Origin: a bacterium
GTDB lineage: Bacteria > Chloroflexota > Dormibacteria > Aeolococcales > Aeolococcaceae
Direction of reading: 5' to 3'
Assembly: GCA_021847925.1 (NCBI GenBank)
Contig: JAJZNI010000091.1
Span: forward strand, 1-41,485
DNA length: 41,485 bases
Made by a program: the position numbers and the translations under genes. The first letter of the stretch is position 1. Each line of letters opens with the position of its first letter. A model generated the notes under the pieces. That model worked only from the letters and a program-made list of their open reading frames with translations. It had not been told where the DNA came from and searched no databases. This document shows, in pieces, positions 24,672 through 30,713 of this stretch.

Positions 24672-25436
24672 GTGCCAGCTCCGGTCCCCGGCTTCCCCGC
24701 TCGCTTCCCGGTCCGGGAGGACGGGATCCGCCCCTGGCGCTACCGGCTCGTCTCGGGCTTCTGGCGCGCCCTCCTGCGGGCGCTCTTCCTGGGCCGCCTC
24801 CACATCGAGGGCACCGACCGGGTCCCCTCCGCCGGGCCGCTGATCGTGGCCTCCAACCACATCAGCAACTGGGACGGGATCGTCTACGGCTCCTTCTTCC
24901 CCGGCACCCTCTTTGCCATCGTGAAGCGCGAGCTCTTCCGCCCAGCGCCGATGGCCTGGCTTCTCGCGGGGTGCAACTGCTTCCCCGTCGACCGCGGAGC
25001 GGCCGACCGCCGCGCTCTTCGGATCAGCCTCGACCTCCTTCGCCACGGCCGCCGCCTCCTCGTCTTCGTCGAGGGCCATCGCTCCCGGGCGGGCATGGGG
25101 GCCGCCGAGGCCGGCGCCGGTTTCCTGGTCCGCCGCACCGGGGCCCGCGTCCTCCCGGTCGCGATCTGGGGCACCGAGCGGGCCCTCCACCGGCGGTGGG
25201 GCCTGCTCCCGCGGCGCGGGCACATACGGGTCCGCTACGGACGGCCGGTGACCGTCACCGGGAGCACCGACCACGAGGTGGCGGACGCCATCGCCGCCAG
25301 GGTCGCCGTGCTCCTGCCTCCGGAGTATCGGGGGATCCATGCGGCCGCTGCCGAGCTCGTCGACGAGCCGGCTCCCCGTCCGCGGCCCCCTAGGCTCGAC
25401 GCGAGCGCGCCCCCTCGGTCTTCTCCGCGCTGCTGA
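24672..25436 (+). CDS. plsC: 1-acyl-glycerol-3-phosphate acyltransferase family protein
   Basis: A 254-aa PlsC-type acyltransferase that probably acylates lysophosphatidic acid in phospholipid synthesis. The catalytic HX4D motif is NHISNWD (His63, Asp68). The glycerophosphate-binding motif is EGHRS (134-138) in place of the usual EGTRS, and LPVAIWGTE follows. No long hydrophobic anchor is obvious beyond the N-terminal amphipathic part. The C-terminal 25 or so residues are Pro/Arg-rich and their codons overlap the convergent acidic-linker gene by 47 nt. The GTG start at 24672 is supported by a leaderless-type -10. Confidence 0.88.
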   Translation: MPAPVPGFPARFPVREDGIRPWRYRLVSGFWRALLRALFLGRLHIEGTDRVPSAGPLIVASNHISNWDGIVYGSFFPGTLFAIVKRELFRPAPMAWLLAGCNCFPVDRGAADRRALRISLDLLRHGRRLLVFVEGHRSRAGMGAAEAGAGFLVRRTGARVLPVAIWGTERALHRRWGLLPRRGHIRVRYGRPVTVTGSTDHEVADAIAARVAVLLPPEYRGIHAAAAELVDEPAPRPRPPRLDASAPPRSSPRC

Positions 25437-25911
25437 GGCACGTGAAGGCCACCACCTCCTTGGTGTCCGGCGCGATGTCGAAGCGGACGATCGCCGTCTG
25501 GCTCAGCACGGTCTCCACCCTCCCCGTCGCCCCGACCGGGTAGTTGCCGATCGGGGTGCCCGTGCGCGGCCGGGTGTTCTGGATCAGGATCACCCGCTCT
25601 CCGACGGCGAAGGGGGGCGGGGGTTCCTCGCGAGCGCTGGGTGGGCGTCCGGGCTGCGGCCGGACCGGAGGCCGGAGCGGCGGTCCCGCCACCGCCTCCT
25701 CCTCGTCCTCGTCCTCGTCATCCACCTCGGCCTCGACCTCGACCTCGGCCTCGACCTCGACCTCGACCTCGATCAGCTCGGGGTCGGCGTCAGCCACGAG
25801 CTCGACGTCCGGGTCCTCGGGGTCGTCCCCCGCCTCGTCGTCCACCACGAGGTCGTCGGGCTCGTCGTCGGGGGCGCCCCCCGGGATCACCTCGTCACGC
25901 TGTCCGGGCAT
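25390..25911 (-). CDS. Hypothetical protein: acidic linker plus C-terminal beta-barrel-like domain
   Basis: A 173-aa protein that I do not recognise. Residues 1-75 are extremely acidic, with an alternating EVEVEAEV block and a run of D/E. Residues 76-100 are Pro-rich. Residues 100-165 (from FAVGERVILI to VVAFTCLSS) form a compact, beta-rich, KOW/SH3-like module. The ATG at 25911 is chosen because GAGGAA lies just upstream; the frame is open further but without support. The 3' end overlaps plsC. The acidic, intrinsically disordered N-terminus could mimic nucleic acid or bind a basic partner; this is speculation. Confidence 0.65.
   Translation of the reverse strand: MPGQRDEVIPGGAPDDEPDDLVVDDEAGDDPEDPDVELVADADPELIEVEVEVEAEVEVEAEVDDEDEDEEEAVAGPPLRPPVRPQPGRPPSAREEPPPPFAVGERVILIQNTRPRTGTPIGNYPVGATGRVETVLSQTAIVRFDIAPDTKEVVAFTCLSSAEKTEGARSRRA
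25695..25773 (-). repeat. Simple 6-bp repeat tract (CTCGAC/CTCGGC)
   Basis: Degenerate tandem hexamers, preceded by CTCGTC triplet-type repeats, encode the EVEV/DEDE acidic run. Such tracts expand and contract easily. Confidence 0.65.
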
Positions 25912-26054
25912 GCTTCCTCGCACCTGGCCGTGGCCGCCCTCATCTCCTGAGACTGCGAGGATACTGCCTGGCCGGGGGCAGGGCGCCCGCGGCAACCGGG
26001 GCCGCCGCCCCTCCGCCCCCCGCGATCACGGGCAGGCCCGCCGGCACCGCACCC

Positions 26055-27598: not shown

Positions 27599-28891
27599 TC
27601 AGATCGTGACCGGGGTGCCGCGGATCACCTCGATCGCGAGCAGGTAGGTGCCGGCGCTCCAGCTCTGTCCCGGGGCGCCTCCGGGCTCGCCGGTGGCGGC
27701 GTCGATCCACTCGTGGAACCCCCAGCCGGAGGCCGGCCCGGAGCTGAGCCGGTTGGCGGCGCTCACGCGGGCCAGGGCGGAGCGGGCGGCCTCGGCCATC
27801 CCCACCCGGTGCAGCGCGACGGCGTGCAGGGCGCCGATGAAGGGCCAGACGCCGCCGTTGTGGTACCTCCCCGGCGGGGTGCGCCAGCGCGGGTCCTGGT
27901 ACGGCTCGAGGTCGCGCCGGTACATCCCCCAGCGGTCGCCGGCCTCGAAGCTTCGCGTGTAGGTGCGCATGGGGTACGGCCGCGCCGCCGGGCTCGCGTC
28001 GAGGCCCTCCATGATCCGGCGGGCGCGCTCCGGGGTCGGGATGCCGTAGAGGACGGCGAGGACATTGCCCAGCACGTCGCATTCGTCCACGTAGCGGCCG
28101 CCGTCGACGTGGGAGAGGTAGTGCCAGCGGTCGGCTCGCATCGCGGCGCGCCGGGCCGCCGGGCCGATCGGGTGCGGGAAGCCGGGCGCCGCCGGGCCCG
28201 TGCCGCGGAGGGCGAGGTGTGCCCCGGCACGGCCCGGGCCCGCGAGCAGCTCCCCATGGTCGCCGCCCGGCTCCGGCCAGAGCAGGAGATCGATCTTGCG
28301 GCGCAGCAGCGCCGCGCGCTCCCGCCAGCGCTGCGACGCCCGGGTGTCGAGGCGGGCCATGCCCTCGAGGGCGCGGTGGTACAGGACGTTGACGTAGAGC
28401 AGCTTGCCGGCCCGCTGCAGGGTGGAGTCCATCCAGTCTCCCCCGGCCGGCGAGTCGATCAGGGTGAACTGGTTCGCATCCTGGCACTCCAGCCACCGCA
28501 TGGCCCGGCGCAGGTGCGGCAGCAGGCGCCGCTCCAGGGACGGATCGGGCCAGGCCCGGAGGTGCTGATCCGCCGCCACGACGTAGAGGCAGGTCGCGTC
28601 GGTGCAGCCCGCCTCGTGGAAGTCCCCGTGGCGGCGCCCCGGCCACCAGGTGTTGGGGATCTGTCCGGGGCGCGACTGGAGCCGCGCCAGGCCGAGGAGG
28701 CTGCGCGCCACCGCCGCCGCCACCATCGCGTCGGCGGTCGCGTGGGCGCCGAGGGCGGCGAAGGCGACGTCCCGGGTCCAGACCGCCGCGTAGTGGGGGA
28801 GCTCGGCCGATGCCAGCAGCCCCTGGGGGCTTGCCCCCGCGCGCAGGACGTCCAGCGCCCGGGTGCGGCCCTCCGCCAGCTCGTCCGGCAG
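27599..28891 (-). CDS. (alpha/alpha)6-barrel glycosidase, amylo-1,6-glucosidase/neutral-invertase type; start codon uncertain
   Basis: A six-hairpin glycosidase-like protein; the blocks IPNTWWPGRRHGDFHEAGCTDAT and RYHNGGVWPFIGALH are typical of amylo-alpha-1,6-glucosidase and neutral-invertase relatives. The first in-frame ATG (28726) gives 375 aa but would cut off the conserved segment HYAAVWTRDVAFAALGA encoded just upstream. That upstream frame is open to a stop at 29078-29080, yet contains no ATG, GTG or TTG. A CTG at 28891 (or 28879) is the best-placed start and would give about 430 aa. Alternatives are a frameshift in the G/C runs near 28900-29000 or a 5'-truncated gene. The substrate is unknown. 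Confidence 0.75.
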   Translation of the reverse strand: MPDELAEGRTRALDVLRAGASPQGLLASAELPHYAAVWTRDVAFAALGAHATADAMVAAAVARSLLGLARLQSRPGQIPNTWWPGRRHGDFHEAGCTDATCLYVVAADQHLRAWPDPSLERRLLPHLRRAMRWLECQDANQFTLIDSPAGGDWMDSTLQRAGKLLYVNVLYHRALEGMARLDTRASQRWRERAALLRRKIDLLLWPEPGGDHGELLAGPGRAGAHLALRGTGPAAPGFPHPIGPAARRAAMRADRWHYLSHVDGGRYVDECDVLGNVLAVLYGIPTPERARRIMEGLDASPAARPYPMRTYTRSFEAGDRWGMYRRDLEPYQDPRWRTPPGRYHNGGVWPFIGALHAVALHRVGMAEAARSALARVSAANRLSSGPASGWGFHEWIDAATGEPGGAPGQSWSAGTYLLAIEVIRGTPVTI

Positions 28892-29015: not shown

Positions 29016-29615
29016 TCAGCTCTCGTTGCCGGTCTCGGCGTGGAAGTGGTCGGAGACCTGCTGCCAGGAGGCGGCGTTCACCTTGCCGGGGAGGGGGGTG
29101 TTGCCGTCGAAGTAGCGGATCTGGCCGGTCTCGGTGTTGCGGTACTCACCGGGGCTCACGAGCGTCCCGGGCGCGAAGCGGACGCCCCCGGCGTGGCTCG
29201 AGACCTGGTCGGGCATCCGGCGCCGCCCCTCGGCCGCCTCCCCGGGGTGGAAATGGTCGGAGACCTGCTGCCAGGCGGCGGCGTTGCTCTTGCCGGGGAG
29301 CGGCGTGTTGCCGTCGAAGAAGCGCACCTGGCCGGTCACCGTGTTGCGGTACTCGCCCGGGCTCACGGCGCTGCCGGGCCCGAAGCGGACCCCCCCAGCG
29401 TGGGTCGAGACCTGGTCGGGCATGTGGTGCCGCCCCTCGGCGCCCCCCTCGGTCGCGTGGAAGTGGTCGGAGATCTGCTGCCAGGAGGCGGCGTTCACCT
29501 TGCCGGGGAGGGGGGTGTTGCCGTCGAAGTAGCGGATCTGGCCGGTTTCCGTGTTGCGGTACTCACCGGGGCTCACGACCGTCCCGGGAGCGAAGCGCAC
29601 ACCGTGCTTGGGCAT
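29016..29615 (-). CDS. Triple-repeat protein of unknown function
   Basis: A 199-aa protein made of three tandem units: residues 1-64, 65-133 and 134-199. Each has the pattern RFxPGTxVSPGEYRNT, then TGQxRxFDGNTPLPGK, then NAAxWQQxSDHFH. There is no signal peptide or membrane segment. The unit resembles small YjzC-like proteins (FxPGT...GxY...W) only weakly. Units 1 and 3 are almost identical in DNA while unit 2 has diverged. AGGAGG lies 5 nt before the ATG at 29615. It follows trpS by 39 nt on the same strand and may be co-transcribed. I cannot assign a function. Confidence 0.75.
   Translation of the reverse strand: MPKHGVRFAPGTVVSPGEYRNTETGQIRYFDGNTPLPGKVNAASWQQISDHFHATEGGAEGRHHMPDQVSTHAGGVRFGPGSAVSPGEYRNTVTGQVRFFDGNTPLPGKSNAAAWQQVSDHFHPGEAAEGRRRMPDQVSSHAGGVRFAPGTLVSPGEYRNTETGQIRYFDGNTPLPGKVNAASWQQVSDHFHAETGNES
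29019..29615 (-). repeat. Three tandem ~195-bp coding repeats
   Basis: The units are 29424-29615, 29217-29423 and 29019-29216. The first and third differ at about 5 positions over ~140 nt of their common core, with one identical run of over 60 nt. The middle unit differs from both at many more positions. Confidence 0.8.
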
Positions 29616-29654
29616 GGTCGCCTCCTCACCTCACCCGTGGGAAGGGTGACGCCA

Positions 29655-30713
29655 TCAGTCTAGCCCGGCCGGCGCGGGTTGCCCGTGGCCGAGTCCGCAG
29701 GCGGCACGCGCCGCGTCCAGGGTCTCGCGGGCGGCGCCCCGTGCCCGATCCGCCCCCGCGGCCAGCACCTCCCACACCGTGCCGGGCCGCGCCTCCAGCT
29801 CGGCGCGGCGCTCGCGCATGGGGGCGAAGTGGTCGGCGATCGCGCTCGCCAGCCAGCGCTTGACGTCGACGCAGCCCGTGCGGGCCTCGCGCTCTCCCTC
29901 CCAGATCCCCTCCCAGCGGTCGGGGCTGAAGAAGCGATGCAGGGCACAGACGTTGCAGCGCTCGGGATGACCGCGATCCGTGCGCCGCGGCCGCTCCACA
30001 TCGGTGACCATGGTCATCACGGTGCGGCGGATCTGCTCCGGGCTGTCCAGGATGCCGATGGTGTTGCCCCGGCTCTTGCTCATCTTGGAGACGCCGTCCG
30101 TCCCCATGACGCGGGGGGTCTCGGTGAACAGCCCCTCCGGTTCAGGAAACACCTGGCCAAAGCGCCCGTTGAACCGTCGGGCGATCTCGCGGGTCAGCTC
30201 GATGTGCGGCGCCTGGTCCTCCCCGACCGGAACGCGGTCGGCGCGCGGGAGCAGGATGTCGGCGGCCTGGAGCACGGGGTAGCCGAGCAGTCCGTAGTTG
30301 ATGTTCTCTGGATACTGCTCCAATCTCTCCTTGTAGCTGGGCACGCGCTCCAGCCAGCCCAGCGGGGTTGCCATCGAGAGCAGCAGGTGCAGCTCGGCGA
30401 CCTCGGGGACGTCGGACTGCAGGAAGATGACCGACCGCTCGGGATCGAGGCCGGCGGCCAGCCAGTCCATCACCATCTCGGCGATCGCGGGACGGATCGT
30501 CGCCGGGTCGGTGACGGTGGTCAGGGAATGGTAGTCGGCGACGAAGAAGGTGCAGTCGTACCGGTCCTGCAGCGCAACCCAGTTGCGCAGCGCGCCCAGG
30601 TAGTTGCCCAGGTGCATCCTCCCGGTGGGCTGCATCCCGCTCAGGACCCGGAGGCGCCGCGCCGGCGCGGGCGCCGCGGCGTCCGCGGAGGGAGCGGCGC
30701 TGGGTTCCACCAT
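29655..30713 (-). CDS. trpS: Tryptophan--tRNA ligase
   Basis: A 352-aa class Ic synthetase that charges tRNA-Trp. The HIGH-type motif is TGRMHLGN (30-37), the KMSKS loop is residues 210-214, and GYPVLQAADILL is a Trp-pocket block. The N-terminal ~20 residues are an Ala/Pro-rich extension. The ATG at 30713 is preferred because a TACAAT hexamer ends 9 nt upstream; the longer open frame upstream has no family similarity. No T-box leader is visible, and the short or absent leader leaves no room for one. Confidence 0.95.
   Translation of the reverse strand: MVEPSAAPSADAAAPAPARRLRVLSGMQPTGRMHLGNYLGALRNWVALQDRYDCTFFVADYHSLTTVTDPATIRPAIAEMVMDWLAAGLDPERSVIFLQSDVPEVAELHLLLSMATPLGWLERVPSYKERLEQYPENINYGLLGYPVLQAADILLPRADRVPVGEDQAPHIELTREIARRFNGRFGQVFPEPEGLFTETPRVMGTDGVSKMSKSRGNTIGILDSPEQIRRTVMTMVTDVERPRRTDRGHPERCNVCALHRFFSPDRWEGIWEGEREARTGCVDVKRWLASAIADHFAPMRERRAELEARPGTVWEVLAAGADRARGAARETLDAARAACGLGHGQPAPAGLD

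Follow-up and report, generated by a model that had tools for sequence, protein, structure and literature searches.

A gene in the Dormibacteria contig examined here (the window, all 41,485 nucleotides of JAJZNI010000091.1) encodes a protein made of three repeats, the outer two nearly identical. It raises three connected questions: what the repeated unit is, how the array acquired its present form, and what such a protein might do for the cell.

A gene built from three modules

The gene lies between trpS and a glycoside hydrolase gene (Table 1). A first-pass annotation had remarked on its spacing of 39 nt behind trpS and on its strong ribosome-binding site, and both observations are borne out: the gap runs from the trpS stop (29655) to the ATG (29615), and the ATG is preceded by GAGGAGG in a good Shine-Dalgarno context. 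The reading frame is a genuine gene rather than a product of chance, because 15 of the 32 genomes from its Dormibacteria family contain homologues and because pN/pS at orthologous units is 0.09-0.16, indicating purifying selection.

Table 1. Features of the module gene and its neighbours in the window
Feature	Coordinates	Strand	Remarks
trpS (tryptophanyl-tRNA synthetase)	29655..30713	minus	upstream; PF00579 7.6e-69; start codon of our choosing
Shine-Dalgarno region	29616..29629	minus	GTGAGGAGGCGACC; read from sequence, 5' of ATG
Three-module protein gene	29016..29615	minus	199 aa; ATG start; calculated pI 6.6; 21 kDa
Module 1	29457..29603	minus	49 aa, GVRFAPGTVVSPGEYRN...SDHFH; profile match 7.1e-33
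Linker 1	29394..29456	minus	low AlphaFold confidence; MPDQVS motif
Module 2 (diverged copy)	29247..29393	minus	profile match 7.8e-30
Linker 2	29187..29246	minus	low AlphaFold confidence; MPDQVS motif
Module 3	29040..29186	minus	profile match 1.1e-32; 95% nt identity to module 1
Glycoside hydrolase (GDE_C / MGH1-like)	27599..28891	minus	downstream of module gene; start ambiguous

The protein contains three in-register copies with start-to-start distances of 207 and 210 nt. The earlier description of three copies of a module of about 65 residues is thus right as to number and needs correction as to size: the period is 69-70 aa, and it consists of a conserved module of 49 aa, whose boundaries were taken from profile matches, and a linker of 20-21 aa. 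The conserved motifs of the module are G-E-Y-R-N-x-x-T-G, Y-F-D-G, L-P-G-x-x-N and W-x-Q-x-S-D-H. In both linkers the MPDQVS motif stands ahead of the next module and recalls the protein's own N-terminus, MPKH; these motifs are possibly fossils of a duplicated start.

The fold of the module is predicted. An AlphaFold model of a single module gives a three-stranded β module (pLDDT 81, pTM 0.62) with strands at 13-17, 23-26 and 41-45, and in the full-length model this set of strands recurs three times, the linkers (54-77 and 121-144) falling below pLDDT 50. Confidence between modules is low in the full-length model (pTM 0.26), which shows no defined packing, and packing between modules is possible. 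Comparison of structures with the PDB (Foldseek) returned no significant match, the best being rubrerythrin with an E-value of 0.77. In a viral structure library the top match is annotated as a YjzC-like protein (probability 0.85, TM 0.57, 24% identity), at a likewise non-significant E-value of 0.33.

A family confined to one lineage

The 15 genomes with homologues represent 7 of the 14 genera of the family, with E-values down to 1e-35. Homologues also occur in ten public contigs, all of them titled Dormibacterota in various spellings or with genera such as Aeolococcus, Amunia and Changshengia; we confirmed that Aeolococcus lies within Candidatus Dormibacteria. Among 110 genomes of the class there were no further homologues beyond weak matches judged to be chance, and on reading, the weak matches at the class level (L076-L080) and at the phylum level (L099-L110) were dismissed as chance or as lying in the wrong frame. 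A sample of 400 genomes of the phylum yielded one distant open reading frame of 72 aa with a single module (L020/L056), found at an E-value of 6.4e-7 by a profile that did not include it; in the reverse search its best other matches were Dormibacteria modules, down to 2.1e-5. The plasmids, phages and viral contigs searched held no convincing relative. The domain family is thus real and lineage-restricted, occurring almost only in one Dormibacteria family.

The number of units in relatives is two or three per protein. It is two in all five loci of genus g10, the sister of the window genus (g1), and three in all four loci of g4, including one (L012) whose third unit is broken by a run of N; g9 has proteins with three units and with two, g3 and g6 have two, and g228, like the window, has three. 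In the genera for which several genomes were available (g10 and g4) the number of units does not vary, so the array is not an unstable one.

How the outer units came to be alike

That units 1 and 3 differ at about 5 positions in some 140 nt while unit 2 is clearly diverged had been noted before, and our counts agree: codons 3-49 of units 1 and 3 show 5 mismatches in 141 nt, and unit 2, compared over its first 50 codons, has 25 nt differences from unit 1 and 22 from unit 3. Synonymous distance is 0.16 between units 1 and 3 and 0.44 and 0.34 for the other two pairs, values that rest on about 35 synonymous sites and are therefore rough. Eighteen of 24 informative sites group unit 1 with unit 3 (binomial p = 3.6e-5, under a one-third null that assumes equal rates), and the two units do share the most recent common ancestry. 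Fast decay of unit 2 as the cause of the likeness is ruled out by the synonymous distances, because at such sites it is unit 2 that lies nearest to the sister genus (0.33-0.53 to g10 unit 2).

The suggestion that recent gene conversion or block duplication was responsible therefore survives in part. That units 1 and 3 share a more recent ancestor stands; a preference for conversion over duplication does not, and the two are not separable because no bounded conversion tract was seen between units 1 and 3 (run test p = 0.19), leaving homogenisation by such a tract unsupported. "Recent", moreover, holds only in a relative sense, as some 5 of 35 synonymous sites already distinguish the two units. 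The three units of the window are mutually closer than the two units of g10 are to each other (0.75-0.90). Seventeen sites distinguish the two units of g10; at 13 of them the window units are identical to one another, with 7 of one type and 6 of the other, a pattern that fits homogenisation in the window lineage, though changes in g10 could have produced it too. Because the units within g4 and within g10 cluster by position in the tree, the arrays of these genera predate the species split and are stable.

Genomic neighbourhood and fusion partners

The order trpS, module gene, glycoside hydrolase was found only in the window genus and in g10, where all five loci keep it. Elsewhere the start of a GNAT acetyltransferase gene overlaps the stop of the module gene (L004), and other genera have as neighbours glycine-cleavage genes in L050, an aminotransferase in L054 and, in L055, a large protein that looks exported; these products were assigned partly by Pfam scan and otherwise by reading of the sequences. 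No constant gene partner across genera emerged in the loci compared, and linkage to trpS, local to two genera, was rejected by synteny as a clue to function. Homology to the hydrolase reaches upstream of its first listed ATG (28726), over 28727-28891 of the minus strand of the window, where no earlier in-frame ATG, GTG or TTG is listed, so that its start or frame is ambiguous. Further along the window, a minus-strand reading frame (25390-25995) carries a hyperacidic tract of E/D/V repeats and ends in a part that looks KOW/SH3-like; it sits opposite the upstream end of a glycosyltransferase reading frame.

Fusions to other domains, all of them in genus g9, are of two kinds. One open frame (L051:5269-6870, genome G231), a possible fusion, has two universal stress protein (Usp) domains followed by three modules (PF00582 3.3e-37, in two stretches), and another (L057, genome G404), on a contig that begins inside the gene, joins a Usp-like part to two modules. 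Within the Usp-module frames lies an internal ATG accompanied by a Shine-Dalgarno-like sequence, from which the modules might also be translated on their own. In the second kind two modules precede a SnoaL-like domain (L030/L052, 8987-9853 in L052; PF12680, SnoaL_2, 1.5e-10); a similar frame that ends earlier (L053:7694-8413) was recognised by reading, the Pfam scan having covered the L052 protein. Genomes G231 and G404 each carry, as a second gene, one with two modules and a SnoaL-like domain.

Discussion

Overall, we believe that the protein is best regarded, at a tentative probability of roughly 0.45, as a soluble, multivalent β-module adaptor of the cytosol, drawn from an undescribed and lineage-restricted family of small domains; this reading draws on the conserved motifs, the modular β fold, the flexible linkers, the two or three copies and the stress-related and SnoaL-like fusions. 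Each 49-aa module would fold independently into a small three-stranded β domain, and flexible linkers would make of the whole a protein of the "beads on a string" kind, probably located in the cytosol. Every module would then offer the same conserved surface to one kind of ligand, the two or three copies would confer avidity, and multivalent binding would be the most likely mode of working. The fusions to Usp and SnoaL-like domains suggest that the module may be appended to enzymes or stress sensors to target or regulate them. Duplication or conversion would have homogenised units 1 and 3, most likely once the lineage had separated from the sister genus.

Several other explanations bear on parts of this picture. 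An assembly artefact is very improbable as the source of the count of three or of the likeness between units 1 and 3: the contig does come from a draft genome of 188 contigs and 87% completeness, but three units are also found in independent genera, and collapse or expansion is unlikely because the longest exact internal repeat is only 72 nt and differences peculiar to single copies occur in units and linkers alike. A carbohydrate-binding module in the service of the neighbouring glycoside hydrolase would account for the gene order kept in the window genus and its sister and for many weak structural matches to GH31 enzymes; we consider it unlikely, however, since the hydrolase does not adjoin the module gene in other genera and the GH31 matches have E-values above 1. 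We give almost no credence to a fragment or derivative of the metal-independent (iota) carbonic anhydrase, although NF047901 matches the whole protein at 1.1e-7 over three stretches and a 57-column collinear alignment can be made to PDB entry 7c5v (E about 0.3-0.5). The low E-value arises because three sub-threshold copies are summed: one unit alone reaches just 0.05-0.08, only 4 of 18 family units are matched at all (best 0.018), and the 31.5 bits summed over the three stretches, covering about 33 of 205 positions, fall so far below the equivalog cut-off of 350 that membership fails.

Of a different nature is the proposal, a real if still tentative possibility, that the module is a diverged YjzC-like (PF14168) member, tandemly repeated in Dormibacteria, and perhaps akin, though cysteine-free, to zinc-ribbon or rubredoxin-like folds; it concerns ancestry and is compatible with multivalent binding. 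YjzC was picked for its sequence pattern, and the profile comparison preceded the structure match in the viral library, which together with the rubrerythrin match points weakly the same way. When the module profile was aligned to a YjzC alignment, whose sequences come from Chloroflexota-type genomes and from Firmicutes plasmids, the two were collinear over columns 4-44 (P 0.0017); 1 of 200 column shuffles in one set and 0 of 500 in another scored as high. Against this, the HHalign probability is only 15%, neither Foldseek E-value is significant, and PF14168 (gathering cut-off 25 bits) gave no match at E <= 10 to the protein or to single units, and none in the source genome. The metal-binding CxxC-type knuckles of rubredoxins and zinc ribbons, of which two are needed, were not found: no module of the window contains a cysteine, and homologues have at most one per module. 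We therefore treat the weak similarity as a lead and not as membership. A fuller scenario, in which a cysteine-free descendant of YjzC-like or zinc-ribbon-like proteins became a mobile tandem binding module, attached to Usp domains and evolving by repeated homogenisation of its units within one Dormibacteria family, strikes us as rather doubtful.

The protein defines a domain that none of the searched databases names; its boundaries are exact, its fusion partners are at hand and its size (21 kDa) is tractable, and it could offer a first handle both on YjzC-like proteins and on the stress-related proteins of an uncultured soil lineage. A literature search on YjzC and on these genera yielded nothing useful, and to our knowledge no function is established for YjzC itself.

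Comparison with known domain families

The first-pass annotation had assigned the module no function, and the searches accord with this: Pfam, NCBIfam and the PDB gave the module no significant match, to a well-characterised family or otherwise, and sequence searches of Pfam, NCBIfam, PHROGs and the PDB returned only sub-threshold matches for it. As no searched database names it, the module represents an undescribed, lineage-specific domain family; as a repeat protein, its architecture is otherwise of an ordinary, familiar style. A hairpin, GTPAPSGTYRVMVSGRxVY, in small Streptomyces phage proteins encoded between MuF-like and major capsid genes (L118:356-541, L119:356-541) resembles the first half of the module over 24 columns; it was picked by the search, so that its P-value is no fair test, and was set aside.

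Three named families share features with the module. With DUF2510 (PF10708) it has in common a short hairpin resembling G-x-Y-x-x-x-x-x-G-x-x-R-Y-x-D-G, but the match spans only 10-12 residues of the 35-position model, leaves the LPG...W half uncovered, and stays below the 24-bit cut-off (17.1 bits for the protein and 19.3 bits for the best homologue; E 0.001-0.02). With iota carbonic anhydrase (7c5v) one stretch shares the order F-x-P, SP, R-T, YF-x-G, SW-x-V, a sub-threshold likeness that covers a small part of the enzyme domain. YjzC resembles the module in size, at about 55-60 residues, and in weak profile and structure similarity; whereas the YjzC homologues examined are mostly single-domain proteins with other insert lengths, the two have in common an order that runs from F-x-PG near the start through G-x-Y, a glycine turn and G..LP to a late W.
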